A stretch of DNA of 40,423 nucleotides from Hyphomicrobium sp. (lineage in GTDB: Bacteria > Pseudomonadota > Alphaproteobacteria > Rhizobiales > Hyphomicrobiaceae): contig JASBSU010000010.1 of the NCBI GenBank assembly GCA_030148725.1, positions 1-40,423 on the forward strand, in the 5' to 3' direction. Under the pieces are notes generated by a model. The model ran no database searches. It was not told the DNA's origin and worked only from the letters and a program-made list of their open reading frames with translations. The position numbers were made by a program, and so were the translations under genes. Positions 556 through 35,996 of the stretch are shown here, piece after piece; position 1 is the stretch's first letter, and each line of letters begins with the position of its first letter.

Positions 556-3549
556 CTAGTGCGCAGCTTCCCAGTTCTCGGCCGCCTTAGCATCGACCTG
601 GATCGGAACCTTCAGCTTCACGACCGGCAGAGCCGCGCCTTCCATCACCTTTTTCACGATGGCGAGAGCGCTCGGCACCTCCGCCTCAGCGACCTCGAAC
701 ACGAGTTCGTCATGCACCTGCAGCAGCATTTTCGCGGTCTTGAGACCCGCGTCGGCGAGCGCATCCGGCATCCGTATCATGGCGCGGCGAATGATGTCGG
801 CGGCTGATCCCTGGATCGGCGCGTTGATCGCAGCACGCTCCAGGAACCCCCGCATGGATGGGTTCCGGGTGTTGATCTCAGGGTAATGGATACGCCGCCC
901 GAAGATCGTTTCCACGTAGCTGCGCTCATGGGCGATGCGCTTCGTCTCGTCCATGTAGGCGCGGATGCCCGGGAAGCGTTCGAAGTAGGTCCTGATGTAG
1001 GCGCCGGCCTCCTCCTTCGAAATGCCGAGCTGATTGGCGAGCCCGAACGCCGAGATACCGTAGATGATGCCGAAGTTGATCGCCTTGGCACGGCGGCGGA
1101 CCTCGGCGGGCATCCCTTCGACCGGCACCCCGAACATCTCCGACGCCGTCATGGCGTGGATGTCGAGGCCGTCCTCGAACGCCTTCCTCAGCTGTGGGAT
1201 GTCGGCAATGTGCGCCAGCACCCGTAGTTCGATCTGGCTGTAATCGGCCGAGATGAGCTGCTTGCCCGGCTCCGCGATGAATGCCGTGCGGATTTCCCGC
1301 CCTTCCTTGGTGCGAATGGGAATGTTCTGCAGGTTGGGCTCTGACGAAGCGAGCCGCCCTGTCGTCGTCGCACCCAGCGCATAGCTCGTATGGATGCGTC
1401 CGGTGCCGCCGTGCACGTACGCCGGCAGCGCGTCCGTATACGTCGAGCGCAGCTTCGTCAGCTGCCGCCATTCGAGCATCGTATTGATGAGCTTGCGTGC
1501 GTCGTCCGGCAGCTCCTCGTTGGCAGCAAGATCGTCGAGCAGCCCGGCACGCGTCTCCCACTGTCCGCTCTTGGTCCGCTTGCCGCCCGGAAGCTGCAGG
1601 CGATCGAACAGCAGTTCGCCGAGCTGACGCGGCGAGCCGAGGTTGAACTTGTGCCCGACGAGCCCGTTCACTTCCTCCTCGAGGCGCGCGACACCCTGCG
1701 CATACGTCGACGACAGCCGCGAGAGGATGCCACCGTTGACGCGAATGCCGGCCCGCTCCATCTCGGCGATCACCGGAATGAGTGGCCGCTCCAATGTCTC
1801 GTAGACGGTCGTGAGGCGCTCCGCCGCAAGCCGCGGTTTCAAGACGAGCCACAGCCGCAGCGTAACGTCGGCGTCCTCGGCCGCATATTCCGTCGCCTTG
1901 TCGAGCGGAGCCTGCGCGAACGTCCGTTCCGACTTTTTCTTCCCCGGCACGTGCGAAATGACCTGCTCGAAGGTGATGCAGGTATGGCCGAGGTGACGCA
2001 TCGCGAGGTCGTCCATGCCGTGCGACCCGCGCCCCGCGTCGAGCGCGTACGACATCAGCATCGTGTCATCGACCGGAGCTACATTGATCCCGTGCTGCGC
2101 CAGCACGTTGAGATCGAACTTGATGTTCTGCCCGATCTTGAGGATCGCCGTATCCTCGAGCAGAGGCTTGAGCAGCGCCACCGCTTCCGCCACCGGAATT
2201 TGCACGATGCCGTCATGGCTGCCGAAATCGAAAGCGTCGGACGCCGCGCGATGGCTCAGCGGCACGTAGCACGCTTCGCCCGGCGCCACCGCCATCGAGA
2301 ACCCGACAAGTTCGGCCACCATCGGGTCGATCGACGTCGTCTCGGTGTCGAACGCGACGAGCCCGGAGTCATAGGCTTTGCCGATCCAAGCCTGCAATTG
2401 CTCGCGCGTCGTAACCGTCTCGTATTGCGAGCGGTCGAACGGTGCCCGCGCCCGCTGTAACATCTCAGCGGCGGCGGCAGCCGGAGACTCGGCAACCGGC
2501 GCACCTGCGTCGGCCTGCGCGCCCTCCGCCGCTGGCGGCCTGCGCCCTTTGGTCGGCACCGTCGAGCCGACCGAAACCGCGACCGGCGCCGGCGCTTCGA
2601 CATTCAGCGCCTCCGCGATGCGCCGCGTCAGAGTGTTGAACTCCATCAGCTGCAAGAAGCCGAGCAGCGACGACGGATCGGGATCGTGCACTCCCAATGC
2701 TTCGGGCGAAATGAGATCCGGCACATCGTCCTTGAGCCGCACCAATTCGCGCGAAACGCGCGCCTGGTCCGCGAACTCGATGAGCTTCTCCCGCCGCTTC
2801 GGCTGCCGGATCTCGCCCGCCCGCGCCAAAAGCGTATCGAGATCCCCGTATTCGTTGATCAGCTCCGCCGCCGTCTTGATGCCGATCCCCGGCACGCCGG
2901 GAACGTTGTCGGTGGAATCGCCGGCCAGCGACTGCACGTCGACCACCTTGTCCGGCGGCACGCCGAACTTCTCCATCACCTCTTCGCGCCCGAGCTTCTT
3001 CGCCTTCATGGCGTCGAACATCACGACGCCGGGCCGCACGAGCTGCATCAAGTCCTTGTCGGAGGAAACGACGGTGACGTCGCCGCCCGCATCGACGATC
3101 TGGCGGGCATAGGTCGCGATGAGATCGTCGGCCTCGAAGCCCTCCTGCTCGATGCACGCGACGTTGAATGCCTGCACGGCATTGCGGATCAGCGGGAACT
3201 GCGGGATGAGTTCATCCGGCGGCGGCGGACGGTTCGCCTTGTATTGCTCGTAAATGGCGTTGCGATAGTTCTCGCGCGACGCATCGAAGACGACCGCCAT
3301 GTGGGTCGGCGCCTCCGAAGCTTTCGTCTCGCGCAGCAATTTCCACAGCATGGCGCAAAAGCCGTGCACGGCGCCCACCGGTAACCCGTCAGACGGGCGC
3401 GTCAACGGCGGCAGAGCGTGGAAGGCGCGGAAGATGTAGCCGGAGCCGTCGATCAGATAGACGTGGCTCCCCTTGATGATCGGCGTGGCTTCGCCCGCGG
3501 GCACGGTCGACGTCGAAGCCTTTTTGGCTTTGATCTTGGGATCGCTCAT
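556..3549 (-). CDS. polA: DNA polymerase I
   Basis: A 997-residue three-domain enzyme that fills gaps and removes RNA primers during replication and repair. Domain order: 5'-nuclease (about residues 25-320, with VYLIDGSGYIFRAFHALPPL and VVFDASRENYR), a proofreading 3'-5' exonuclease with intact motifs FDTETTSIDP, NIKFDLN and YAAEDADVTL, then the polymerase with motif A DYSQIELRVLAHI, motif B RRAKAINFGIIYG and motif C QVHDELVFEV near the C-terminus. Length and the functional exonuclease fit alphaproteobacterial PolA. An Ala/Pro-rich linker (about 330-370) joins the nuclease to the rest. It is a single-copy host gene lying outside the prophage. Confidence 0.97.
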   Translation of the reverse strand: MSDPKIKAKKASTSTVPAGEATPIIKGSHVYLIDGSGYIFRAFHALPPLTRPSDGLPVGAVHGFCAMLWKLLRETKASEAPTHMAVVFDASRENYRNAIYEQYKANRPPPPDELIPQFPLIRNAVQAFNVACIEQEGFEADDLIATYARQIVDAGGDVTVVSSDKDLMQLVRPGVVMFDAMKAKKLGREEVMEKFGVPPDKVVDVQSLAGDSTDNVPGVPGIGIKTAAELINEYGDLDTLLARAGEIRQPKRREKLIEFADQARVSRELVRLKDDVPDLISPEALGVHDPDPSSLLGFLQLMEFNTLTRRIAEALNVEAPAPVAVSVGSTVPTKGRRPPAAEGAQADAGAPVAESPAAAAAEMLQRARAPFDRSQYETVTTREQLQAWIGKAYDSGLVAFDTETTSIDPMVAELVGFSMAVAPGEACYVPLSHRAASDAFDFGSHDGIVQIPVAEAVALLKPLLEDTAILKIGQNIKFDLNVLAQHGINVAPVDDTMLMSYALDAGRGSHGMDDLAMRHLGHTCITFEQVISHVPGKKKSERTFAQAPLDKATEYAAEDADVTLRLWLVLKPRLAAERLTTVYETLERPLIPVIAEMERAGIRVNGGILSRLSSTYAQGVARLEEEVNGLVGHKFNLGSPRQLGELLFDRLQLPGGKRTKSGQWETRAGLLDDLAANEELPDDARKLINTMLEWRQLTKLRSTYTDALPAYVHGGTGRIHTSYALGATTTGRLASSEPNLQNIPIRTKEGREIRTAFIAEPGKQLISADYSQIELRVLAHIADIPQLRKAFEDGLDIHAMTASEMFGVPVEGMPAEVRRRAKAINFGIIYGISAFGLANQLGISKEEAGAYIRTYFERFPGIRAYMDETKRIAHERSYVETIFGRRIHYPEINTRNPSMRGFLERAAINAPIQGSAADIIRRAMIRMPDALADAGLKTAKMLLQVHDELVFEVAEAEVPSALAIVKKVMEGAALPVVKLKVPIQVDAKAAENWEAAH

Positions 3550-3741: not shown

Positions 3742-3830
<89 letters not shown>

Positions 3831-3878: not shown

Positions 3879-5024
3879 TCAAATTCTCCGTTGACGCTTT
3901 CCAGGCGACATCAGCGCCGCCTCCTCCAATTCGTCCTGCTCGGCGTGCAAATAGACCGTCGACAGAGTGGCAGGCGTCTTGTTGATCAGCTTTGAGAGAA
4001 CGTGCTGCGGCGTCGACCGCGCACGCCACGTCGCGCCCGTATGGATCAAGTCGTGGAAGCGGAACTGAGCGAGCGCAGGCGCGGGATCGTGCCACGGGTG
4101 GTCGGCTCGCTCCCACGGATCTCCGTTGGCTTTCATCAGCGGCTTCGACGCCCACTCGCGAACTGGTTGCCACGAGTTGTGCATGTCTATCACGTGCTCG
4201 CCGGGCTTCTTGTTACTCTCAAACAGCCAGGTCGTCGTTCGCTTGCGAGCCAACTTCAAAAACAATCGCAGCGGTCGCGGTATGGGCATGTCCGCGCGGG
4301 GCTTCTTGTTCTCCGCTTCACCAAGGCGCTTGAATGATATGCGCATCGTATCGAGGTCGATGTGGCCGTGCCCGCGGCGCCGCTCCCAGCTCAGCTGCGT
4401 GCAGGCTTCCTCGCGCTGGCAGCAGTAGAGCGCAACGAGGATCATCAGTACCATGTCACGCTGAGACTTTTCCCAGCGAAGGCGTCGACACGCCCACAAT
4501 AGGCGCGCGACTTGCGACCGCGTGAGTGTCGTGCCAGCCGGCTCGGGTTTTTTTGGCAACCACAGCGGTTTGTATTCCGCGCCGAGCGCAAACTTGACCG
4601 CAGTCCGCAGCCGCGAAAGTTCCGTCCAGACGGTCCATGGCGCCGCGCCTTGATCGAGGCGGTCGCGGTAGTATCTCTCGATCTTTTGCCGGTTCAGGGC
4701 GAGACACATTTCAGCGCCCAGCGCCGGCCGGACGTACACGAATGCCTGCTCGACGCGCGCGAGCGTGTGCTTTTCAGGAGCAGATTCGCGGTAGAGCTTG
4801 AATGCCGCAGCAACCGTGAGCTTGCCGATCGCAGGTTTGCCATCGCGAATGTACTTCGCGAGCGCTAGCTCTGCGTCACGCCTCTCAGCCAAGCAATGGC
4901 CGGTTGTAATTTCCGTCCGTTTGTGGACGATGTACCAGTAGTAATCTTTGAAGCCCGCCTTCTTGCGCGCCCCGTTTTTTGTGTCGGGGCCGAAAAGGAC
5001 GAGCCTAGGTGCGCCGCGCGCCAT
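3879..5024 (-). CDS. int: phage tyrosine recombinase (integrase) with altered active site
   Basis: A 381-residue integrase reading toward tRNA-Arg. The N-terminal arm ([20 protein letters not shown]) and core-binding region (about 80-170) are followed by a catalytic domain. Arg I is in [13 protein letters not shown] (about residue 206) and the nucleophile Tyr in STVYLHAEQ (about 355). The HxxR box reads [11 protein letters not shown]: the second catalytic Arg is Ile, and the GH expected before the Tyr is replaced ([11 protein letters not shown]). It may be impaired or use another residue. The ATG used gives a normal N-terminus but overlaps the upstream excisionase-like frame by 160 nt. Family placement is secure; activity is doubtful. 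Confidence 0.85.
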
Positions 5025-12031: not shown

Positions 12032-12064
12032 GCGTGATAGCATGGAGTGAATCGAAGGAATCCC

Positions 12065-15000
12065 ATGCACGTCGGTCTGATCCGGTCATACGGCGAAAAG
12101 CTGCTGACCAAGCAATACCGTCTGAACGCGCCGGCCGGCGTCACGTGGGGCAACGACGCACCGAGTGCAGTTGCTGGTACATGGGAGGAGCTTGGTGACG
12201 TTGGGCGCGGCGTTGTGCTGCACGGCTATCGCGAGCAGCCGATCGACAACCTCAAGGGCCTTCGCGACTTCCTGATCGGCGTCGCCGACGAGCAGCAGAT
12301 TGCGCTCATCCAAGGTCGCCTACGCCCAGGTGCCGAACTCCAGATTGAAAACGGCTGGAAAGACGTCGTCGGGCGCGCGCAAGAGAACTACGAGGACTAT
12401 CCGCGCAGGCTGCTGGTGCTCGATGCCGACGAGATCCCCGGCGACATCGCCGACGCGCCCGACATCGTCCGCGACTGGCTATACGCAATCCCCGAATTCG
12501 ATGGCTGCGCGCACGTTGCGTGCTTCTCGCCGAGCGCCGGCATTCGACCGCACATTCGCGTGCGCCTATTCGTGCTCACCAGCGAGGAGCACACGCTTGC
12601 TTCTCAGCGGGCGTTTATCCGATTCATCAACGAGCGCGCCGGCTATCGCCGCGAAGGCAGCAAGCACGTCGGCCAGAAGCTCTTTGACGACTCGATCTAT
12701 GGCCCACAGAGTTTCACGGCACTTGCTGGCCCATTGCTCATTGCTGAGACATCAGCCGGAGCAAGGCGCCTGCCACGACCCGTGCCACAACCGATCGCTT
12801 GGTTTTTCGATGGTGACGCTGCGGACATCGGTGTGTCGCGAGCGGCGGCGCAGCTCGGCATCGACCCGCGCGACATCCAGTATATCGAGCAGTACGCCGG
12901 CCCGGCGGGCGACAAGACCGACTGGTGGGCGGAGATCGCGCCGGACAACGTCGTTGGCCCACTGCACAGAGCGCTGTGCCGCGCGGCGTTCGCGTCCCCC
13001 GAGGATCAGCAAGCACAGCACTTCGGTGCGTTCGTTGCGCAAGCGCGTCGCCGGCTGCTTGAGATCGACCCGCAAGACTACCCACGACGCGAGAAGCGCC
13101 ATCTGAACATCCAGCGCCTGCAACAGGCATGGGACAAAGCCCGCGCGCGCCGGCAGCTGGTAACGCCCGTTTACTCAGCCAAGCCAGCCCCGGCGCCGAC
13201 ACCCAGCGCGCTCACGCCGCGGCAGCAGCTGGCACGTGACGTGGTCGCGGAGGCGCGCTCGATCCTCGACGGGAAGCCTATGCAGGTTCTCGTCAGCAGC
13301 CCACCAGGCGCCGGCAAGAGTTTTGCGCTGCAAGGCATCCTGACGCCGGGCACGATCAGCTCGAACCGCATCACCACAATGGCGCCGACGCACGAACTGA
13401 CGGCGCAGCTCACCGACGACCACAAGCGCCACGCCTTCAATATCGCGCCGGGCGGTATGCACCACGGCCTCGACCTGCCCGGCATGATCCGCCACCACAA
13501 AGGGCGCAAGCATCTCTGCATCAACGAGAAGCACGGCAAGATGGCGGAGCGCGCCGAGCGCCTGGGCATCAGCGTCAAGAAGGCGGCATGCGCCACGTGC
13601 CCCGACCGCGACGCGTGCGCCTGGATCAAGCAGGCCGATGACACTGGACCGGGCGAGATACTGCAGCCGCACGCCGCCGGCCTCAACCGCTACGCCAAGA
13701 CAGACGAGCGCGCGGACCTCACAATCTACGACGAGAGCATCATTGGCGGCTTGATCGACGGCACCGTGTCGGGCGACATGCAGATCGCCGAGCTGGAGCA
13801 CAAAGGCGCCTTCGCCAAGCTCAAGGACGCCCGTCAGTCGATCATCAGGCATCTACTCGCGTGCATCCCGCGTGGCCAGAGTGAGCGGGCAATGGTGCCC
13901 AACGCCTTCGACGCCGACACGATCAACTTCTGGCTGGAGCTGGAGGAGACACACCGGAAGACGATCAGCCAGAACGCGATAGCCGCCGTCGACGCCAAGT
14001 TCAATGCCACTGAGCGCCAGGTGTTCATTTCGCGCTTCGTCACCGCACTGCTGGAGAACATGCGCGACAGCCGGAAGCTGCCGCACTGCAAGGCGGTACG
14101 GGTATGGCACGCGCGCGGCGCTAAGTGGGTCACCACGGTGCGCCGCTTGTTCCTACAGGACAACGTGCTGGCCAAAGGCGCTATCCACCTGGACGGCACC
14201 GCGCGGCTCGATCCCGACTTGAAGATCTGGAAGGCGGTAATATCGCCGGACGGGACGCCCTTCGACCACCGGGTGATCGACATGCAGCCGACGCCCGGCA
14301 ACGTGCGCATCACGCAGGTCGTGGACGCGTCATTCGCCAAGAGCAGCCTGTTGCCGAAAGACGATCCCGAGCTGGACGAGGCCATCGCGCGCGCCGAGAG
14401 CATCGCGTCGGCCACCTGGATCGCAAACGCATTGGCGGACGACCCTGCCGCACACAGAATTCAACACGACGCGGGGGTCACGGCCCGGACGCTGGCCAAC
14501 AAACGCGCCGGCCGCAAGAAGCGCGCCGACAGCCGCCTTTATGCGATCTGGCTCACGGTGCTGCACCAGGCGTTCACGCACAAAGAGACGCTGCTTGTGG
14601 CGCAGAAGGAGGTTCTGGCCGCGCTCGGTAAGATGGGTTTACCGGGCAACGTCATGCGCGCGCACTTCGGAGCGCTGCGCGGCCTCAACCACTTCAAGGA
14701 TGTACCTGCAGCCACCATCGTGGGACGGCCGGCGCTGGATAACTTGCAGCTAGAACTGAACACTGAGGCGCTGTTTGTGCAGAACGACTCCGTCGCGCCG
14801 ATTGCCCACGCCGACACCTGGGGTGTGCAGACGTTGTCGGTGCAGCTGACCGATGGCAGCGAAGTGCAGATACAGTGCGACGGGCATCCTGATGTGCATT
14901 GCAGGTCACTGCAAGCGCTGGTGAGCCACGCCGAGGTCGCCCAGGCCGTCGCGCGCATCAGGCCGTACGACCGCGGGCCGGACAATCCGTGCAACGTCGT

Positions 15001-15784
15001 CGTGTTCGGGCAATGGCCGGTTGGGCTACCAGTTGACCGCGTCTGCGCCCTGAGCGACGTGCGGCCGGCTGAGGCCGAGGTTGCCCTTAAAGGACTCGGC
15101 GTGTTCGACGACGTGGTGACGACGGTCGACGTGTTCGACAGGCTGTATCCGAACGACCCAAAGAAGCTCGAAGTGCAACAGCAAGTGAAGCTCGACTATG
15201 TGCGCATCGCGCTCCGCACGTGGCTCGCGGTCGATCCACTTGAGGACGGGTTGTATTCGCGACATACGCCGTTTTTGGAGCCGCCGCCGGCATCTCATAC
15301 CTTGGTTGCAGATGCCGGCATTACCCCTCAAATCGGGGGTATTTTGGTTGCATCTAAAATGGTTAATGCGGACTCCTTATCCCATATAGTAAGTAGGGAA
15401 GTTGGGTATCTCAAAACCAATAAGGAGTCCGCATTAACCATTGCAGGTGCATCTAAACAGGGTGCTTGGGATGGGTATCAGTTTGTGGAATTGGTGGTTG
15501 GTCACAACACCAATGGGAAGTGGAGGACGAAGCGCGTAACGGCGATCGTGCGGGGCGGGATGACCGCGGAGCAGATCGCGCACCGGTCGGGGCTCGACAT
15601 CAGGGGGATGCGGGTACTGACGGCGCGACAGGTGCGCAGCTACGGGCTGCAGTTGGTGCGAGGGCTGATCGACTACGAGTGCAAACGATCCCCCGCCTTG
15701 GCTTCGTTTGCGGCGCAGATAGTCGATGACGTGGGCATGCTAGAATTCATCGAGACGTGGTGCGGCTGGAACCTGCGTGTGTGA
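12065..15784 (+). CDS. primase-helicase replication protein
   Basis: 1,239 residues from ATG 12065 (AAGGAA Shine-Dalgarno). The N-terminal part looks like an archaeo-eukaryotic-type primase: DxD in RLLVLDADEIP (Asp120, Asp122), then SAGIRPHIRVRLFVL, the S...H.R motif that binds the nucleotide. After a Pro-rich linker (about 378-390) comes an ATPase: Walker A SSPPGAGKS (about 410-418), a Cys cluster ACATCPDRDAC (about 510), DEAH-like YDES (about 553). Length and pairing with the SF2 helicase suggest it starts phage DNA synthesis. The C-terminal 160 residues are encoded by less GC-rich DNA holding a perfect inverted repeat. Primase call is from motif pattern only. Confidence 0.75.
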   Translation: MHVGLIRSYGEKLLTKQYRLNAPAGVTWGNDAPSAVAGTWEELGDVGRGVVLHGYREQPIDNLKGLRDFLIGVADEQQIALIQGRLRPGAELQIENGWKDVVGRAQENYEDYPRRLLVLDADEIPGDIADAPDIVRDWLYAIPEFDGCAHVACFSPSAGIRPHIRVRLFVLTSEEHTLASQRAFIRFINERAGYRREGSKHVGQKLFDDSIYGPQSFTALAGPLLIAETSAGARRLPRPVPQPIAWFFDGDAADIGVSRAAAQLGIDPRDIQYIEQYAGPAGDKTDWWAEIAPDNVVGPLHRALCRAAFASPEDQQAQHFGAFVAQARRRLLEIDPQDYPRREKRHLNIQRLQQAWDKARARRQLVTPVYSAKPAPAPTPSALTPRQQLARDVVAEARSILDGKPMQVLVSSPPGAGKSFALQGILTPGTISSNRITTMAPTHELTAQLTDDHKRHAFNIAPGGMHHGLDLPGMIRHHKGRKHLCINEKHGKMAERAERLGISVKKAACATCPDRDACAWIKQADDTGPGEILQPHAAGLNRYAKTDERADLTIYDESIIGGLIDGTVSGDMQIAELEHKGAFAKLKDARQSIIRHLLACIPRGQSERAMVPNAFDADTINFWLELEETHRKTISQNAIAAVDAKFNATERQVFISRFVTALLENMRDSRKLPHCKAVRVWHARGAKWVTTVRRLFLQDNVLAKGAIHLDGTARLDPDLKIWKAVISPDGTPFDHRVIDMQPTPGNVRITQVVDASFAKSSLLPKDDPELDEAIARAESIASATWIANALADDPAAHRIQHDAGVTARTLANKRAGRKKRADSRLYAIWLTVLHQAFTHKETLLVAQKEVLAALGKMGLPGNVMRAHFGALRGLNHFKDVPAATIVGRPALDNLQLELNTEALFVQNDSVAPIAHADTWGVQTLSVQLTDGSEVQIQCDGHPDVHCRSLQALVSHAEVAQAVARIRPYDRGPDNPCNVVVFGQWPVGLPVDRVCALSDVRPAEAEVALKGLGVFDDVVTTVDVFDRLYPNDPKKLEVQQQVKLDYVRIALRTWLAVDPLEDGLYSRHTPFLEPPPASHTLVADAGITPQIGGILVASKMVNADSLSHIVSREVGYLKTNKESALTIAGASKQGAWDGYQFVELVVGHNTNGKWRTKRVTAIVRGGMTAEQIAHRSGLDIRGMRVLTARQVRSYGLQLVRGLIDYECKRSPALASFAAQIVDDVGMLEFIETWCGWNLRV
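13160..13174. repeat. GTAAAC palindrome 5
   Basis: GTAACGCCCGTTTAC inside the primase-helicase gene, near the linker between the two enzyme parts. Confidence 0.5.
15358..15442. repeat. perfect 23-bp inverted repeat in the primase-helicase gene
   Basis: Arms at 15358-15380 and 15420-15442 are exact reverse complements, separated by 39 nt. They are flanked by direct copies of GCATCTAAA (15350-15358, 15449-15457). The block is AT-richer than its surroundings and stays in frame. Iteron-like TTGGTTGCA occurs at 15302 and 15345. Confidence 0.85.
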
Positions 15785-15850
15785 ACTGTTGCGTTTGACG
15801 AACAACGGTCTTGACTTTGGTGCGTGAGTCGTCCAGAGTGTTGCGTATGG
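15785..15850. promoter_or_regulatory. operator/promoter-like motifs upstream of the RNA region
   Basis: ACTGTTGCG...AACGGT palindrome (15785-15809), then TTGACT, GGTGCGTGAGTCGTCC and TTGCGTATGG: degenerate copies of the phage promoter module just past the primase-helicase stop. TTGACT (15811-15816) could be the -35 of a rightward transcript into the RNA region. Confidence 0.5.
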
Positions 15851-16001
15851 TGACCGAGCACATCCCTGTATCGGTATCGCCTACCCTACCCCGGGTCGCC
15901 GCTAGTGGGTCACCACGAGCAGCAGGAGGGGTGCCGGCGGGCATACGTCGCGGACGTCAGCGCAGAAGGCGTGACAGGGCGGAGAGACGTCCACCAAGTT
16001 T
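15851..16001. other. gene-free stretch before the tRNA-like element
   Basis: No credible gene. GC-rich, with CTACCCTACCCCGGGTC and a GTGGGTCACCAC hairpin; may be the 5' part of the structured RNA. Confidence 0.4.
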
Positions 16002-16076
16002 TACCGGGTAGCTCAATGGTAGAGCGGCGCTGGAAAGCAGCGAGAGTGTGGTGTTCGATGCCCACCCCGGTATCCA
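16002..16076 (+). tRNA. tRNA-like element, degenerate (Gly-type discriminator)
   Basis: Acceptor TACCGGG/CCCGGTA pairs perfectly; D arm GCTC/GAGC is intact with AATGGTA loop; T arm has TTCGATG loop on a five-pair stem with one bulged T. U73 and encoded CCA follow, then a second CCA (tandem CCACCA). The anticodon arm is abnormal: CGCTG/CAGCG closes only five bases (GAAAG), and a seven-base loop (GGAAAGC) lacks U33. It is thus probably not a decoding tRNA, but a mimic or a domain of the RNA that follows. Confidence 0.6.
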
Positions 16077-16080
16077 CCAA

Positions 16081-16680
16081 GCCCCGAGAGGGGCGGTTTG
16101 CTCGCAGTGGGTAACCACTGCCACCGATCACCCGCCGGGGTGAGCGCCTTAGTCACGAGCCGCAAGGCCACGACGGGCAGAGAGCCGGGGACGTGGCGCT
16201 GTTCCTTAAAGCGCTTGCGTGGGTGGTCTGCAAATACCACCGGGCAGCTCGGGAAGACGAGCACGTAGGACCAAGCCTGAATGCTTGGCGGTGCCGGTAC
16301 GTCATCGGAACCACGCCGCGAGGGAGATCGCGGTACGGAGCACACCGGGAGAAAAGCCGTGTCGAGTTACCATCGCACGTAAACGGTGGCCGACCTAGTA
16401 CTGGGCAACCAGATGTTTCGGCGCAAACGAAGACGGGAACCGCGTCCAGTGCAGCGGTGACACTCGGGAGAGACCGAGCACGTGCTTACTCGGACGCCCT
16501 GGGCTGATGGGGCGGTTTGGCCTTTCCCGACCCTGTCCGCCGTTGCGTGCGGCGTGAGGGAGCCTGGGGCGTCTCGGTAAGCACGCGTTACTGACTTATG
16601 GGCCGGGGCAGCTTGAGCTGCGGGGCTGTTTTGCGAACGCCGGAATATCGGCAGCCCGGCGGGGTCACTCCCCGCCCTCG
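16081..16680 (+). ncRNA. candidate large structured phage RNA (GOLLD/ROOL-like by style)
   Basis: No plausible gene for 600 nt, but dense local folding: GCCCC-GAGA-GGGGC (16081-16094), GCAGTGG-GTAA-CCACTGC (16104-16121), GGTGGT/ACCACC (16222-16241), CCAAGC/GCTTGG (16271-16288), CCGCGA/TCGCGG (16316-16333), CCATCG/CGGTGG (16370-16389), CTCGG/CCGAG (16463-16478), CGCCG/CGGCG (16538-16554), GCAGC-TTGA-GCTGC (16608-16621), GGCGGGG/CCCCGCC (16658-16676). Two loops are GNRA tetraloops, and GGGGCGGTTTG occurs twice (16090, 16509). Giant phage RNAs such as GOLLD are known to lie beside tRNAs. Strand is inferred from the tRNA-like element and neighbours; homology is not shown. Confidence 0.6.
16577..16591. 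repeat. GTAAAC palindrome 6
   Basis: GTAAGCACGCGTTAC, inside the 3' part of the structured RNA region. Confidence 0.7.
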
Positions 16681-16706
16681 CCCTGAGCCCTTACTGCGTC
16701 TTGAGT

Positions 16707-16727
16707 GGTGCGTTTATCGAACACCTG
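16707..16727 (-). promoter_or_regulatory. phage start-block motif
   Basis: GGTGCGTTTATCGAACACC, matching the conserved start block in leftward orientation, though the next gene is rightward. It may be an operator or an antisense promoter into the RNA region. Confidence 0.45.
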
Positions 16728-16743
16728 TACGGGAGACACACCA

Positions 16744-17157
16744 GTGACGCCGACCATTTCACCCGTGCCGCTGACACGCAACCAGATGCGGTGCCTTATG
16801 GAAGCGTGCGGGCCGGGCGGCACGCCCGCCTCGCGCTGGACTGAGCAGACGGTCAAGAGCCTCGTCCGGCACAAATTCATCGAGCAGCGTTTTGTTGGGG
16901 CGATCTCGCCCGCCGCGCCACGCGGCACACGCGTCTCGATCTACGTGACGACGCCAGCCGGCGTTGAGCGCATGCAGCTGCCGCTCAAAGCCAAGAGCAA
17001 CGGCTATGTCTCGGCGGCGCAGCTCAAGGACATGCTCCGCCAGACGCGCGCAGCGCTCAAGGCTGCGCAGCAGTGGATGCCGCCGCATGATGGCGCCGAC
17101 GCCGCCCGCGCCAAGATCGCGGAAGCTCTGGCAACAAGCGCAAGGGCGGTGCTGTGA
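16744..17157 (+). CDS. winged-helix-like phage protein
   Basis: 137 residues from GTG 16744 (GGGAG Shine-Dalgarno 8 nt before). Residues 10-75 (LTRNQMRCLMEACGPGG, TEQTVKSLVRHKFIEQRF, RGTRVSIYVTTPAGVERM) fit a winged helix with a beta wing, as in small regulators that separate restart and effector phases. C-terminal part is helical with Ala-rich stretches. Possible regulator; target unknown. Confidence 0.6.
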   Translation: MTPTISPVPLTRNQMRCLMEACGPGGTPASRWTEQTVKSLVRHKFIEQRFVGAISPAAPRGTRVSIYVTTPAGVERMQLPLKAKSNGYVSAAQLKDMLRQTRAALKAAQQWMPPHDGADAARAKIAEALATSARAVL

Positions 17158-22571: not shown

Positions 22572-24122
22572 TCATTCTTCCATTGCCACGACGTCGCCAA
22601 AGGGCGGCTCCGCGTGCTCATACTGCGGCGGTACGATGTGGATCACATGCACGCCGCGCGGTTCGTCCGGCCAAGCGCCTTGCAGGTCTGAGAAGTGCAG
22701 GACGTGCGTCGGACGAGTCGCAAGCTCCTCAATCCAGCGATCAAAGACGTCGACGAACGACGTGCCTCCGCGCGGCGCCGGAATTGTGCTTTCATCAGCG
22801 AATTCGCTGATAGGTCCAGCCTTCACAACGTGCGTATTGAAATACGCCACGTGAATATCGGCCTCGCGTGCAAACTTGCGCGCCCATGCGTGCGCGCACG
22901 CTGTGAATTTCTGCACTTGCTCGCGAGATATTGAGCCGCTGATGTCGATTGCGATTGCAACGTGGTATTCCTTCACGTTGCGCGGTCCAGGTATCAGGCG
23001 CCCATATTCGCGCGACATAGCGTGGGGCGTGCGCAATGACCGGTGACGCTTTGGCCAGCCGCGCATAATGCCCTGCACTTTGCTGCCGAGCACGCGCATG
23101 AAGCGAAGCGACGGCGCATTGACGAATAGTCCAAGCTTTTCGAGCGCGCCGTAAGCGGCGCTTTGCTCGATCGACCAGCCCTTGCCACCTGAGCCCGGCA
23201 GCGCGAAGTCATTAGCCGCCGGCTTGTTGCCGCCCTTGGTTGCTGCCGGCTTGCTGAATAGTCCCGACTCGTCGTCGCCTTCGTCGTCAAAGAACGACTC
23301 CGCGCCGCCGTCCGACTCGTCGTCATCAAGCTCCGGCTCGGGTTGCTCTTGTTCGCCAGTTTCCTGCGCCGCCTGTTGCGCGTCGAAGTCGCGAGCACGC
23401 TGGACGGCCTCCGCTTCGTCCAGGGCTTTGCGCGCCATCTCGCGAATTTTGCGTGCGACGTCTTCGTCGACCTTGTCGCGCTCTTGCCCCGCCGCGTTGT
23501 CGGGTTGCTTGGTTTTGTCCTTTAGCGTGTTGTATTTGTCGGCAGTCGTCGCCTGCTTTCGCGCGGACGGGTCGCGATTCAGTTGGTCATAAACAAAAAC
23601 GGCCGTTACGTTCTGCGCCCGCGTGGCGATGGCACTCGGCGGCGCCTTGTCCGGCGGTGCGACGGCATATCGCTTTTTGCCGGTTTGGCGCCCTATCCGT
23701 GAATAGAATTCAGACGGGTCCAGTGGGTCGTTAAAGAGCATGCCGGGAAAGCGCCAACCGGCAGCCAGCAAGTCGCGATTAATCACGGCATCAAGCGCGA
23801 CGTTTGCGATTTGATGATTCCGGCCGCGTGTGAATTCGTGATCCATGCGCAGCACGTGCATTGCTTCATGGGCAATAATGCACGCGAGCAATGCCGGCGA
23901 CCAAAGGTCAGCGTCAGCGTTGATTGTGTTGGGGTTGTAATAAAACACGTCAACGCAATTGGTCGCCATAACCCAAATGCGCGTGTCGCGCTTCCAAGTC
24001 ATGTTGCGAGAAAAGGCGCCCAGGAAAGGATCGAGCAACGGCATTAGCGCGATTGCGCGGCGCAGATTGCGCGGCATCGGGTCCGCGTCGTCGACGTCTT
24101 CGATGTCGTCAAATAGGCTCAT
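22572..24122 (-). CDS. metallopeptidase-like VWA protein (MoxR partner)
   Basis: 516 residues, ATG with GGGGGA Shine-Dalgarno. N-terminal domain has CIIAHEAMHVLRMDHEFTRG, a zinc-peptidase HExxH (His85, Glu86, His89). The middle is a charged linker (about 200-300, runs of Asp/Glu). The C-terminal VWA-like domain has a MIDAS motif in HVAIAIDISGSISREQVQKF (about 390-405). This two-domain layout is typical of proteins encoded beside MoxR AAA+ ATPases, thought to act together in remodelling or metal insertion on client proteins. Gene order here (basic protein, MoxR, VWA) supports one complex. The client in the phage is unknown. Confidence 0.85.
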   Translation of the reverse strand: MSLFDDIEDVDDADPMPRNLRRAIALMPLLDPFLGAFSRNMTWKRDTRIWVMATNCVDVFYYNPNTINADADLWSPALLACIIAHEAMHVLRMDHEFTRGRNHQIANVALDAVINRDLLAAGWRFPGMLFNDPLDPSEFYSRIGRQTGKKRYAVAPPDKAPPSAIATRAQNVTAVFVYDQLNRDPSARKQATTADKYNTLKDKTKQPDNAAGQERDKVDEDVARKIREMARKALDEAEAVQRARDFDAQQAAQETGEQEQPEPELDDDESDGGAESFFDDEGDDESGLFSKPAATKGGNKPAANDFALPGSGGKGWSIEQSAAYGALEKLGLFVNAPSLRFMRVLGSKVQGIMRGWPKRHRSLRTPHAMSREYGRLIPGPRNVKEYHVAIAIDISGSISREQVQKFTACAHAWARKFAREADIHVAYFNTHVVKAGPISEFADESTIPAPRGGTSFVDVFDRWIEELATRPTHVLHFSDLQGAWPDEPRGVHVIHIVPPQYEHAEPPFGDVVAMEE

Positions 24123-24142
24123 TGGAATCCCCCGTCGCGAGT

Positions 24143-24181
24143 GTAAGGCGAACGACGCAACAGTAGTACGATTCGCCTTAC
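24143..24181. repeat. 10-bp inverted repeat between MoxR and VWA genes
   Basis: GTAAGGCGAA/TTCGCCTTAC, 19-nt loop. In reverse the loop contains CTGTTGCGTCGTTCG, like the phage operator. No T tract. Could be an operator or mRNA processing hairpin setting the MoxR:VWA ratio. Confidence 0.6.
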
Positions 24182-24194
24182 AGTCGGCTGACTA

Positions 24195-25367
24195 TCAGCG
24201 CCGCGCCTCGCCTGCCATTTCCGAAAGGCTGGACCCTGGGGCGCCGCATTCATCAAGGATGCGAGTCGCCTTGATCGTATCGCAAAGCAGCGCGCGCACT
24301 TCGCGCGTGATCTGCGTCGACCAAACGCGCACCATTTCCTTGTTGCCGGCGGCGCAATGTTCCAGATAGTCGGCGACGGCCTTAACGGCCTTGTCGCGCG
24401 CCTTGCCCGGCAGCATCCCGCCAACGTGGCGATAAATGGCGCCCATCTGGGCAATAAAGCCCTCCGTTGTGCCGGGCGCCTTGTTGGCGGTCGGGTTGGA
24501 GAGAACTTCGCTAGCCGGCTTCACTGTGCCGAGCAGAATTGCATGGCTGCAGATTTGCCCCCAGACAACCGGCCCGATGCTGGACGCCATACGCAGCGCC
24601 GCCGCGTAATTGTTTTGCAGGTCCGTAAGGTCCGTCACGTATGGCGCGGCAAGGCGCAAGCCCTGCTCAAGCCCGCGCGGCGTGAAAAACGTCGCTTCGT
24701 CGCCAACCATGCGATTGCTGGAAAAGTGCGCCTTTGCGTTGCTGCCGGTAAGCCAAGACGTGACAGCCGTAAGCAGGGGCGACGCCGGCAGAATGCGCGT
24801 CAGATAGGCCGCGACTTCTTCCGGCGTCGTTTCGAGAATGACCGACGCCATACGCGAGCGAACGGGCGGGTCCAGCACCATGGCTGACGAAGTGTCAGTC
24901 GTGCGGTTGCCGGCGGCAACAATGCGCGTATCGGCCGGCAACGCAAAGCCGGCAGCGCGCTTGTCGAGTAGCACTTCGAGCGCGGCGCTAAGCGTATCTG
25001 CGGCGGCAAGCGTCAGCTCGTCGCAAAGCAGAATGACCGGCTTACCAGTCTCGGCGCGTAGGACTTCCACGCGGTCGACAATCGCGGGCTTGAGTGAAAC
25101 AGTGCTGCGCTTGTCGTCGCTCACATACTGAATGCCCGAAACGAATTCGGGCTGTATCTGGGCGAGTCGCACGTCCAGCACGGCATAGCCGTGCCGCTCG
25201 GCAATCTGAGCGATCAGCGACGACTTGCCGACGCCTGGGGCGCCGTAAAGCATCGGCACCGCGATTTGATAGCCGTCATGGCGCGGTTTGAAGCAATCCA
25301 GCATGAACGACTCAACATCGTTGCCGGTGACGACATAGAGCGACTGGTAAGCGTCTTTCTTGGCCAT
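24195..25367 (-). CDS. MoxR-type AAA+ ATPase
   Basis: 390 residues from ATG 25367 (AGGGGA upstream); a longer frame upstream is shadow of the basic protein gene. Walker A GAPGVGKSS (about 43-51), Walker B ILLCDELTLA (about 110-119), sensor 1 RIVAAGNRTTD, arginine-finger zone DPPVRSRMASVI. C-terminal lid helices follow. AAA+ chaperone that would work with the VWA protein encoded next. Confidence 0.88.
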   Translation of the reverse strand: MAKKDAYQSLYVVTGNDVESFMLDCFKPRHDGYQIAVPMLYGAPGVGKSSLIAQIAERHGYAVLDVRLAQIQPEFVSGIQYVSDDKRSTVSLKPAIVDRVEVLRAETGKPVILLCDELTLAAADTLSAALEVLLDKRAAGFALPADTRIVAAGNRTTDTSSAMVLDPPVRSRMASVILETTPEEVAAYLTRILPASPLLTAVTSWLTGSNAKAHFSSNRMVGDEATFFTPRGLEQGLRLAAPYVTDLTDLQNNYAAALRMASSIGPVVWGQICSHAILLGTVKPASEVLSNPTANKAPGTTEGFIAQMGAIYRHVGGMLPGKARDKAVKAVADYLEHCAAGNKEMVRVWSTQITREVRALLCDTIKATRILDECGAPGSSLSEMAGEARR

Positions 25368-25408
25368 TGGCCTATCCCCTGTTTGAGCGTGAAAGGTTGC
25401 GCGCGATA

Positions 25409-25428
25409 GCGCGGGCTTAAGCCCGCGC
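25409..25428. repeat. 20-bp perfect palindrome at a gene end
   Basis: GCGCGGGCTTAAGCCCGCGC overlapping the stop codon of the basic-protein gene. As RNA it gives a long GC stem without T tract. Confidence 0.7.
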
Positions 25429-26109
25429 CTCGCCTGCGTTCTGCGTTGCTTTGGCCTTGGCCGGCTTGGTTGCCTTCGGCGCTTTCTGCGCCTTGGCCGC
25501 TGCATCGGCTGCAACTGCCGTCGCCTCTTCACGCGAGATCGCGGCGCCCGCAACCTGCATGAGCTTGTCGAGCTTGCCGCCTACCGACTTCAATGCGTGG
25601 CGCGCATCCTTGGCGGCATCCTTGTGCGTCTTGTCTTTGGCGGCAGCTTCGAGCCCCGCGAACGCGGCCACGCAAAGCTTGATCAGGTCCGCGTTGATGC
25701 CGGCCTTTTCCAGCATCTCGCGAGCGATTGCCGCCTTGTCGACGGGCGCCGCCTTGGTTGGCGCTTCCTCGCCTTCGGCGTCGGAGGCGTCGGCATCGCT
25801 GGACGTCTTGCCCTTGCCGCCGTTCTTACCCATGCCCTTCCGGCCGCGTTCTTCGAGCGCAAGCCCTTCCTCGATCAGGTCATCCCATGCGCGGGCAAAA
25901 AGCACGTTGCCGGCGTTCTTGGACTTGCCGGCGGCTGCACATGCGTCGCGGAAAGCGGCGCGCATGTCGCTAATGATAACGTCGCCGAACGAGCGGGCGC
26001 CCGTGGCGTATGCGTCGCGTATCGCGTCGCGAAGCATCTGCGTCGCCGAGCCGGCCTGAGCGCCGGCAGTGCGCGCCTTGGTAATAAGCTCCTCGTGAAT
26101 CTTGGTCAT
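25417..26109 (-). CDS. Ala/Lys-rich phage protein upstream of MoxR
   Basis: 230 residues from ATG 26109 (GGGGTAG upstream). Helical N-terminal domain (ELITKARTAGAQAGSATQML, ARSFGDVIISDMRAAFRDAC), a Gly/Lys/Asp linker, a helical middle, and a basic tail (KAQKAPKATKPAKAKATQ). First gene after the 26.1-kb promoter and likely part of the MoxR-VWA module; DNA binding is possible from the tail. Confidence 0.7.
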   Translation of the reverse strand: MTKIHEELITKARTAGAQAGSATQMLRDAIRDAYATGARSFGDVIISDMRAAFRDACAAAGKSKNAGNVLFARAWDDLIEEGLALEERGRKGMGKNGGKGKTSSDADASDAEGEEAPTKAAPVDKAAIAREMLEKAGINADLIKLCVAAFAGLEAAAKDKTHKDAAKDARHALKSVGGKLDKLMQVAGAAISREEATAVAADAAAKAQKAPKATKPAKAKATQNAGEARA

Positions 26110-34451: not shown

Positions 34452-35996
34452 ATGGCTGCAAGTGACACAGAGAAGTTTGGCGCAGACCCCACGTGCGTGT
34501 GGTCGCCGCAGGAAGGCGCTCAGACCGCCTTCGTACATTGCCCGATCGAGGAGATCGCTTACGGAGGTTCGCGCGGCGGCGGAAAGACCGACGCGCAGCT
34601 TGGGCGGTTGGCTGTTCGATCGCAGATCTTCGGCAAAGACCTCAAGGCGTTGCTTATCAGGCGCGAGCTTCCGCAGCTTGAGCCGGTCATCTCGCGCAGC
34701 AAGGAGATCTTCGGCCCGCTCGGCGCCGAGTACGTCGACTCCAAAAAGAAGTGGACCTTCCACAACGGCGCAACCGTAATCTTCCGCCACTTCTCGGAAG
34801 AAGACGACGTCGAGAAAACGCAGGGCTGGTCGCTCACCGACGTCTGCATCGAAGAGGGGACGAACTTCCCCAACTTCCTGTCGCTGCTCAAGCTCAAAGC
34901 CACGCTGCGCAGCACAGCTGGCGTGCCGACGTCGTTCACGGTGACGATGAACCCCGGCGGCCCCGGCCACAACATCGTCAAGAAGCGCTACATCGACCCG
35001 GCCCCGCTCGGCTGGAAAAAAATCATCGACCGGGACAAATTCACCGGGCTGGAAAGCGCGCGGATCTACATCCCCAGCCGCGTCTTCGACAACAAGAGGC
35101 TGCTCGCGGCGGACCCTCTGTATATCGCTCGTCTTGCTCAGTCGGGCTCAGAAGCGCTGGTCAGAGCGTGGTTGCACGGTGACTGGAACATCATCGACGG
35201 CGCATTCTTCGACTCGTTCGACACGAACAAGCACGTCATACGGCACTGCGAGCTGCCGCCGCATTGGACGCGCATCTGTGGCGCGGACTGGGGCTCCGCA
35301 AAGCCGTTCGCCTTTGTCTGGGGCGCGGTGGCCAGTGAGACATGGGCAACCCCCTGCGGAAAGATGATCCCGAAGGGCGCCATCATCATCGAACGCGAGC
35401 TGTACGGCATCAAGCTCGATCAGAATGGTGATTTCGTCCCCAACGAGGGCTTGCGCCTTTACGCCGAGGACGTCGCGCGGCAGGCGTACGAGGTCGACAA
35501 GGAGCTGCCGAACGTCCGTATGCGCGTCATCGACCCCAGCGCGCACGCTACTGATGGTGGCCCATCAATCGCCGAGCGCATCTATCGCGCCACGAACGGC
35601 AAGCTGGGCTTCGCCAGGGCGGACAACAAGCGCGTGCCGGGTCGCGGTGCCCTGGGCGGCTGGGACGTCGTGCGGAGCCGTCTCGGCGGCGAGGAGATGC
35701 TGATACCGGGCGTGAAGACGCCCATGCTGTTCTTTATGGACAGCTGCGTTCACGGCATCCGCACGCTTCCGACGCTGCAGCATGACAAGCTCAATCCCGA
35801 AGACCTCGACACGGACGGCGAGGACCACTGGGCCGACGCGCTGCGCTATCTGTGTATGTCGCGTCCGTGGATGGCGAAGACGCCGGACAAGTTGAAGCCG
35901 GTTGAGGGCATCGAGAAGGTCAAAATCAATGACCTGTGGCGGCGCCAGGCCGAGGAGATGGCGCTGGAGCAAAGTGGCGCTCCGATGCGCATCTGA
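34452..35996 (+). CDS. terL: terminase large subunit
   Basis: 514 residues. ATPase: Walker A YGGSRGGGKTDAQ (38-46), Walker B TDVCIEEGT (about 132-138), coupling motif FTVTMNP. RNase H-like nuclease: first Asp in ICGADWGSAKP (about 277), second in RVIDPSAHATDG (about 360), third in EDHWADALRYL (about 457). It cuts concatemeric DNA and pumps it into the prohead through the portal. No Shine-Dalgarno is evident since the palindrome fills that space. Confidence 0.95.
   Translation: MAASDTEKFGADPTCVWSPQEGAQTAFVHCPIEEIAYGGSRGGGKTDAQLGRLAVRSQIFGKDLKALLIRRELPQLEPVISRSKEIFGPLGAEYVDSKKKWTFHNGATVIFRHFSEEDDVEKTQGWSLTDVCIEEGTNFPNFLSLLKLKATLRSTAGVPTSFTVTMNPGGPGHNIVKKRYIDPAPLGWKKIIDRDKFTGLESARIYIPSRVFDNKRLLAADPLYIARLAQSGSEALVRAWLHGDWNIIDGAFFDSFDTNKHVIRHCELPPHWTRICGADWGSAKPFAFVWGAVASETWATPCGKMIPKGAIIIERELYGIKLDQNGDFVPNEGLRLYAEDVARQAYEVDKELPNVRMRVIDPSAHATDGGPSIAERIYRATNGKLGFARADNKRVPGRGALGGWDVVRSRLGGEEMLIPGVKTPMLFFMDSCVHGIRTLPTLQHDKLNPEDLDTDGEDHWADALRYLCMSRPWMAKTPDKLKPVEGIEKVKINDLWRRQAEEMALEQSGAPMRI

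Follow-up and report, generated by a model that had tools for sequence, protein, structure and literature searches.

A candidate large noncoding RNA with an embedded tRNA-like element in a Hyphomicrobium prophage and a related phage

The prophage locus and its gene-free stretch

The window analysed here, 40,423 nucleotides from Hyphomicrobium sp., comprises a complete contig (C50), one of the 61 that make up a 3.84-Mb draft genome. Its tRNA-Arg gene, its integrase and phage genes that reach as far as a terminase at 34452-35996 point to a prophage adjoining a tRNA gene. The prophage also carries a DUF2201 (VWA-like) protein next to an AAA ATPase (22572-25553, Pfam matches), a pair that we take to resemble a MoxR-VWA type module. 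The features referred to below are as follows, in window coordinates:

556-3549: DNA polymerase I-like ORF, recognised by eye
3742-3818: tRNA-Arg(CCG), called by ARAGORN
3879-5024: integrase
12047..15784, plus strand: upstream neighbour, a primase/helicase-like protein of 1245 aa with a counterpart in the related phage
15787..15804, plus strand: operator-like site just 5' of the RNA (PWM 26.5)
15811..15816, plus strand: TTGACT, a candidate -35 element; TTGAC apparently also in the homolog, from the pairwise alignment
15818-15835: weaker operator-like copy (PWM 16.4)
15843..15960, plus strand: 5' segment, starting with GCGTATGGTG, kept in both phages (73% identical over aligned letters, first ~105 nt)
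16002..16073, plus strand: embedded tRNA-like element (Rfam tRNA) with a 7-bp acceptor stem, D-arm, bulged T-arm and anticodon loop GGAAAGC
16081..16100, plus strand: GNRA hairpin GCCCC GAGA GGGGC, then GGTTTG; in the homolog TGGCC GAAA GGCCA, then GTTTG
16104..16121, plus strand: hairpin GCAGTGG GTAA CCACTGC (pair probability 1.0)
16128..16143, plus strand: hairpin TCACCC GCCG GGGTGA; in the homolog ATCCCC GCCG GGGGAT
16144..16434, plus strand: middle part, with hairpins predicted by single-sequence folding at 16196-16214, 16222-16241, 16247-16262 (GGAAGA loop) and 16315-16334 (GGGAGA loop)
16435..16585, plus strand: conserved 3' core, GGGAACCGC N10 GCGGTGACA (85% identical over 53 nt)
16463-16478, plus strand: hexaloop hairpin CTCGG GAGAGA CCGAG, within the 3' core
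16481-16505 with 16561-16585, plus strand: long arm of the 3' core
16506-16537 and 16538-16554, plus strand: two head hairpins of the 3' core, the first compared in a hand-set register
16594..16698, plus strand: 3' extension, with hairpins 16608-16621 and 16658-16676 from the single-sequence fold only
16706..16723, plus strand: operator-like site 3' of the RNA, before the next gene (PWM 30.9)
16744..17157, plus strand: downstream neighbour, a protein of 137 aa without assigned family; the start at 16744 is our choice, and the longest ORF runs from 16705

At E up to 0.001 the upstream neighbour matches nothing in Pfam or PHROG; among 16 plasmid records with a distant relative of this primase-like protein, five are annotated as DEAD/DEAH helicase, one as toprim and one as primase/polymerase, the others being hypothetical or carrying no annotation. 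Within its ORF, in a stretch of lower GC content, lies a 38-nt inverted repeat of 87% complementarity (15343-15457), and no tile of the window has a lower folding z than the one that holds it. No second copy of the repeat was found in the Hyphomicrobium genome itself, and since the primase-like frame stays open across its middle and, judged by eye, encodes residues similar to those of the related phage, the repeat is not plainly an insert.

The stop codon at 15784 is followed by 920-959 bases that show no codon periodicity before the next start, at 16705 or 16744. From ~15780 to 16740 codon-position GC stays level, with a range of 0.02-0.19 in 240-nt windows; in both flanking genes it is periodic and reaches 0.43. 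This bears out the claim of the initial annotation that no credible gene lies here. In view of the absence of codon periodicity and of a one-base gap in the core alignment with a homolog (described below), we reject a coding function. The same annotation had placed a gene-free RNA candidate of ~600 nt at 15990-16680; the observation stands, but the unit is larger, extending over about 15843-16593 and possibly to 16698. We estimate the length of the element at about 750-860 nt and that of the homolog at ~740 nt.

Folding of the single sequence predicts 13 local hairpins on the plus strand with a mean pair probability of at least 0.92, in agreement with the ten or more noticed initially, and the two GNRA loops reported then, GAGA (16086-16089) and GTAA (16111-16114), are joined by a third, GCAA (16162-16165). 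A repeat noted at the same time, GGGGCGGTTTG, is indeed present twice, at 16090 and 16509, but the homolog keeps only GTTTG after the first hairpin; because the second copy is lost there, we set this 11-nt repeat aside as probably incidental. The region from 15990 to 16690 has a folding z of -3.66, and its reverse strand one of -2.38 (20 shuffles each). When both strands of the window were tiled (161 entries, 14 shuffles each), 11 entries beat the best placed tile of the element (-2.83), and the regular tile 16001-16500(+) scored -2.19; single-sequence folding energy is thus not exceptional for this GC-rich window.

The window has two candidate long-range helices. The end of the 3' extension can pair with 15961-15980, forming a closing helix (15961-15980/16680-16698) with a probability of about 0.76-0.80, while a helix between 15843-15857 and 16362-16376 is equalled in 9 of 1000 shuffles in the window and in 629 of 1000 in the homolog. 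The homolog confirms neither of them, and as the two cross, their coexistence would need a pseudoknot.

A palindromic site with a consensus of about TGKTGCGTYTATYGTACA occurs in nine strong copies in the prophage (10627, 11943, 11983, 12014, 15787, 16706, 26140, 27537 and 40156), at least five of which lie between genes (11943, 11983, 12014, 15787 and 16706). The nine score 26.5-31.8, whereas five mononucleotide-shuffled windows reached 10.6 at best; the scores of the nine are partly circular, since the sites also built the PWM. This site is probably the operator of a phage regulator, and we infer that the copies flanking the gene-free stretch are repressor or activator sites that would place the RNA under separate control. 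The motif was not found in the related phage loci L044, L068 and L070, as expected if the regulator differs, which leaves the regulatory reading without comparative support from the loci scanned. A consensus scan of 15700-16800 gave no full sigma-70 promoter match and no intrinsic terminator.

Conserved structure in a related phage

A scan of viral contigs for the terminase yielded 17 loci, and eight such records were compared with the RNA region. One of them, IMGVR_UViG_3300036987_000538 (L044; 66,876 nt), whose terminase is 81% identical to that of the window, contains two matches in the same order, one of 53 nt at 85% identity (E 3e-11) and one of 48 nt at 79% (E 3e-5); in the other seven records the best RNA-region match had an E value of 0.3. 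The flanking genes correspond as well: the primase-like proteins are 63% identical over residues 7-1075 and 45% over residues 1108-1244, and two genes 3' of the RNA are 48% and 43% identical to those of the related phage, the 137-aa downstream neighbour being 48% identical to its counterpart over 97 aa. The homologous stretch, likewise gene-free, runs on the minus strand of L070 from about 2819 down to 2075 and has a fold z of -3.3.

The order of parts is common to both phages: firstly, the 5' segment; secondly, the tRNA-like element; thirdly, a GNRA hairpin followed by GTTTG; then the GCCG-loop hairpin and, finally, the 3' core. The GTAA and GCCG-loop hairpins differ in order: the GTAA hairpin comes first in the window, the GCCG-loop hairpin in the relative. 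The 105 bases of the 3' extension (16594-16698) have no evident counterpart in the homolog; in their place, between the RNA and the shared downstream gene, the related phage has a 160-aa ORF of unconfirmed gene status, for which no convincing family match was found.

Conservation is strongest in the 3' core. In its 151-column alignment 95.6% of cells are paired and six of the 34 pairs are changed on both sides; when the partners are slid by 1-3 columns, pairing drops to 29-48% and the double changes to 0-1. Letter shuffling, a control to which two sequences give little power, reaches six double changes in 32 of 500 shuffles. The consensus fold of the core has a z of -7.1 on the plus strand and -4.1 on the reverse strand (0 of 1000 column shuffles as good in each case), as compared to -1.7 to +1.6 for 20 tiles of neighbouring coding sequence on both strands. 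In the arm, four changes on one side only are compatible with pairing solely as G-U, on the plus strand, which points to RNA rather than to DNA hairpins. The hexaloop hairpin (CTCGG GARAGA CCGAG across the two phages) and its surroundings are almost invariant, suggesting a tertiary contact or a protein site.

Upstream of the core, the consensus-fold z is -5.0 for the tRNA block, equalled in 1 of 300 shuffles, and -4.4 for the block that follows (0 of 300). Within the latter, the GNRA hairpin at 16081..16100 has three of its five pairs changed on both sides in a hand-set register, from which the MAFFT alignment is one base off. The GCCG-loop hairpin has three of six pairs changed on both sides and none in slid versions, a count that 62 of 500 letter shuffles reach. 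Neither the 5' segment (z -1.03, 45 of 300 shuffles as good) nor the middle part, in a crude alignment (z -0.75, 66 of 300), is significant.

Chance or GC-rich folding, which energy alone does not exclude, is excluded by the comparative fold; it is the comparison with the homolog that settles that the structure is more than chance. The covariation check suggested at the outset yielded one homolog with compensatory changes, two sequences being too few for formal covariation statistics. The element lacks a coding signal, has a conserved secondary structure on the plus strand with an embedded tRNA-like element, and occupies the same gene slot in both phages. The initial description of a large, ornate, phage-borne structured RNA is in this way supported by one homolog, by compensatory changes and by strand preference.

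The tRNA-like element and the search for relatives

ARAGORN and a whole-window Rfam scan with fast filters both missed the element at 16002-16073. In local scans it exceeds the Rfam tRNA (RF00005) cut-off of 29 in both phages, with 32.7 bits in the window and 38.3 bits in the homolog, and ARAGORN calls the homolog's copy tRNA-Ser GGA. By our reading, U33 is absent from both copies, G or C standing instead (a C precedes the GGA anticodon in the homolog), and two pairs of the homolog's anticodon stem are mismatched. The loss of U33 makes a decoding role improbable, and we conclude that the element is probably not a decoding tRNA. It lies in the same place in both phages, where the tRNA block is 50% identical. 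The RNA had at first been said to follow a tRNA-like element; the element exists, but it is inside the unit and not before it.

Searching all 4227 Rfam families by cmscan at E up to 10 returned, besides tRNA, only chance-level, unrelated matches (two in the window element and six in the homolog). Membership in GOLLD or ROOL, as first proposed, is therefore not supported, neither copy matching their Rfam models at E up to 10, and the same is true of OLE and HEARO, which had been named for checking. A model search of the Hyphomicrobium genome for GOLLD (RF02032) at E up to 10 was also empty, in a search without a positive control (0 of 14 control genomes passed the cut-off). The other possibility raised initially, a new class, is the better reading, in that no known large Rfam RNA credibly matches either copy. 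In the literature covered, outside which most subscription-journal papers fall, we found no published description of such an RNA.

Further homologs were sought by several routes. With both copies as queries, blastn against phages and plasmids gave only short chance or tRNA matches, and blastn against 100 relatives and 103 family genomes gave only the element itself beyond chance and tRNA matches. Viral contigs selected through the primase, the downstream protein, the helicase and the VWA protein held no homolog; of the RNA patterns applied to viral contigs, one gave 14 stretches, which nhmmer showed to be unrelated, and another none. Genome contigs selected through the primase held no homolog, and those selected through a core pattern gave two stretches that we judge to be chance and that did not match a covariance model of the core (R1). 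A further pattern, which does not fit the homolog itself, picked out seven stretches of viral contigs, none with an R1 match at E up to 1. Neither tblastn with the neighbouring proteins of the relative nor a search for the 190-aa neighbour in 105 relatives, which returned only itself, led to a further homolog.

R1 was then run, with Infernal's stricter filters, on overlapping draws of 385, 397 and 398 genomes. The Hyphomicrobium genome scored 173 bits; elsewhere, E limits of 0.1, 0.05 and 0.01 left matches in 12, 7 and 4 genomes, respectively, which reached at most 27.8 bits and are judged to be chance. In ten plasmid loci with primase relatives (L011-L015 and L039-L043; L038 left out) nothing exceeded 12 bits, and in two family relatives (L111 and L112; the L111 primase is 34-42% identical in three segments) the only match, of 10.3 bits, is likewise put down to chance. 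The absence of R1 matches near these more distant primase relatives indicates that the RNA does not accompany the primase family as a whole. Among the sequences covered, the class is rare, with two members known.

Other intergenic stretches came to light beside the plasmid primase relatives. A Methylobacterium radiotolerans plasmid has a structured stretch upstream of its primase relative (L011 4380-4740, fold z -2.3) for which no credible Rfam match was found; this intergenic stretch (~470 nt) was set aside, having only a 17-nt hairpin in common with the window element. Upstream of primase relatives on two Agrobacterium plasmids lies a further intergenic stretch, 76% identical between them (L013 2563-2699 and L039 4189-4324), each copy showing, by eye, an AAGGCCT-type inverted repeat.

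Interpretation and comparison with known RNAs

On balance we favour, with some reserve, a large noncoding RNA of about 750-860 nt that is free-standing, acts in trans and belongs to a temperate phage. A dedicated promoter under phage control would drive its transcription in the interval from the operator-like sites at 15787/15818 to the next gene, and in the folded RNA a 3' core of conserved sequence would be joined to a 5' part that varies more and holds the tRNA-like element. By analogy with GOLLD and ROOL its role may be structural, probably that of a scaffold or of a particle that assembles by itself. In the least certain step, it might present or shelter the tRNA-like element and engage the host translation or tRNA-processing machinery late in infection. 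We put forward only tentatively the more specific version, in which a giant RNA without detectable sequence relation to GOLLD and ROOL has arrived at the same design, a self-assembling particle with a conserved 3' core and a non-decoding tRNA as cargo or bait.

An unlikely alternative is a cis-acting leader or inter-gene structure of the replication operon that controls the downstream gene, the tRNA-like element being a cleavage site for RNase P or RNase Z. Genes are co-directional on both sides of the RNA in both phages, the scan of the region gave neither a promoter nor a terminator, and tRNA-like elements can serve as processing sites. Against this, the length and the multi-part core go beyond ordinary leaders, the 160-aa ORF of the relative (an unconfirmed gene) would separate the RNA from the shared downstream gene, and the operator-like sites on both flanks suggest a separate unit.

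Less probable again is that the tRNA-like element is itself the product, an altered tRNA or a decoy by which host anticodon nucleases would be resisted or distracted, with the rest of the RNA as its folding or processing carrier. The constancy of its place in both phages would agree with this, and phage tRNAs with altered anticodons have been described as escaping nucleases (PMC10264068). However, conservation is highest in the 3' core rather than in the tRNA block, and the window's element has a bulged T-stem. We consider improbable a DNA-level element, namely a phage replication or single-strand origin whose hairpins act as DNA: a primase-like gene adjoins in both phages, the stretch is hairpin-rich and the reverse-strand consensus fold is also significant, whereas the stronger fold of the RNA strand, the arm changes that pair only as G-U on the plus strand and an embedded tRNA fold, unexpected in an origin, all argue for RNA. 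Hardly credible is a very divergent GOLLD (or ROOL) beyond the recognition of the Rfam models, which would account for the shared layout (phage, large, internal pseudo-tRNA, 3' part conserved and 5' part variable, as described for GOLLD in PMC12286853) but is opposed by the empty searches for both families in either copy and for GOLLD in the Hyphomicrobium genome.

If the free-standing RNA that we favour is real, the presence of a tRNA-like element at a fixed place within an unrelated design, in two diverged phages, would speak for the element as a functional part and not as a passenger. The function of large phage RNAs would then become open to testing by comparison: features that recur (phage location, an internal pseudo-tRNA, a conserved 3' part) would be candidates for function, and those that differ between families would be dispensable.

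Among known RNAs, tRNA (RF00005) is matched in the acceptor, D and T arms and by a score above gathering in both phages; the element differs from it in lacking U33, in the bulged T-stem of the window's copy and in having other structure on both flanks. A tmRNA combines a tRNA-like domain with a tag reading frame, and none was reported by ARAGORN or Rfam in the window or the homolog. OLE and HEARO are large structured bacterial RNAs to which the two copies show no Rfam match at E up to 10. Like the present element, ROOL is large, ornate, borne by phages or prophages and often found near tRNA islands (PMC12286853), but the tRNA-like element is internal here and a ROOL model match is missing.

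GOLLD offers the closest parallel. GOLLD assembles as a 14-mer RNA nanocage; the cages of GOLLD and ROOL have no known function. Many GOLLD members exceed 800 nt, as compared to the 750-860 nt estimated here and ~740 nt for the homolog. Carriage by phages is common to both: the window has tRNA-Arg, integrase and terminase, and the homolog lies on an IMG/VR viral contig with a terminase. RNA-only cages formed by the phage RNAs GOLLD and ROOL are described in Nature in 2025 (PMC12286853), where some GOLLD members have tRNAs in a linker, inside the cage, and where GOLLD binds ribosomes in pull-downs; a mycobacterial GOLLD is described with a predicted pseudo-tRNA (PMC6582537). Both of our copies likewise hold a tRNA-like element within the RNA, a feature that alone does not define the family. 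The likeness to GOLLD is one of layout only, in the absence of a covariance-model match in either copy, and comprises phage carriage, a perhaps similar size, the internal pseudo-tRNA of some members, a conserved 3' part and a variable 5' part (PMC12286853; PMC6582537). Together, these comparisons suggest that the two copies probably represent, as its first two members, a new class of large noncoding RNAs in phages, GOLLD-like in layout.
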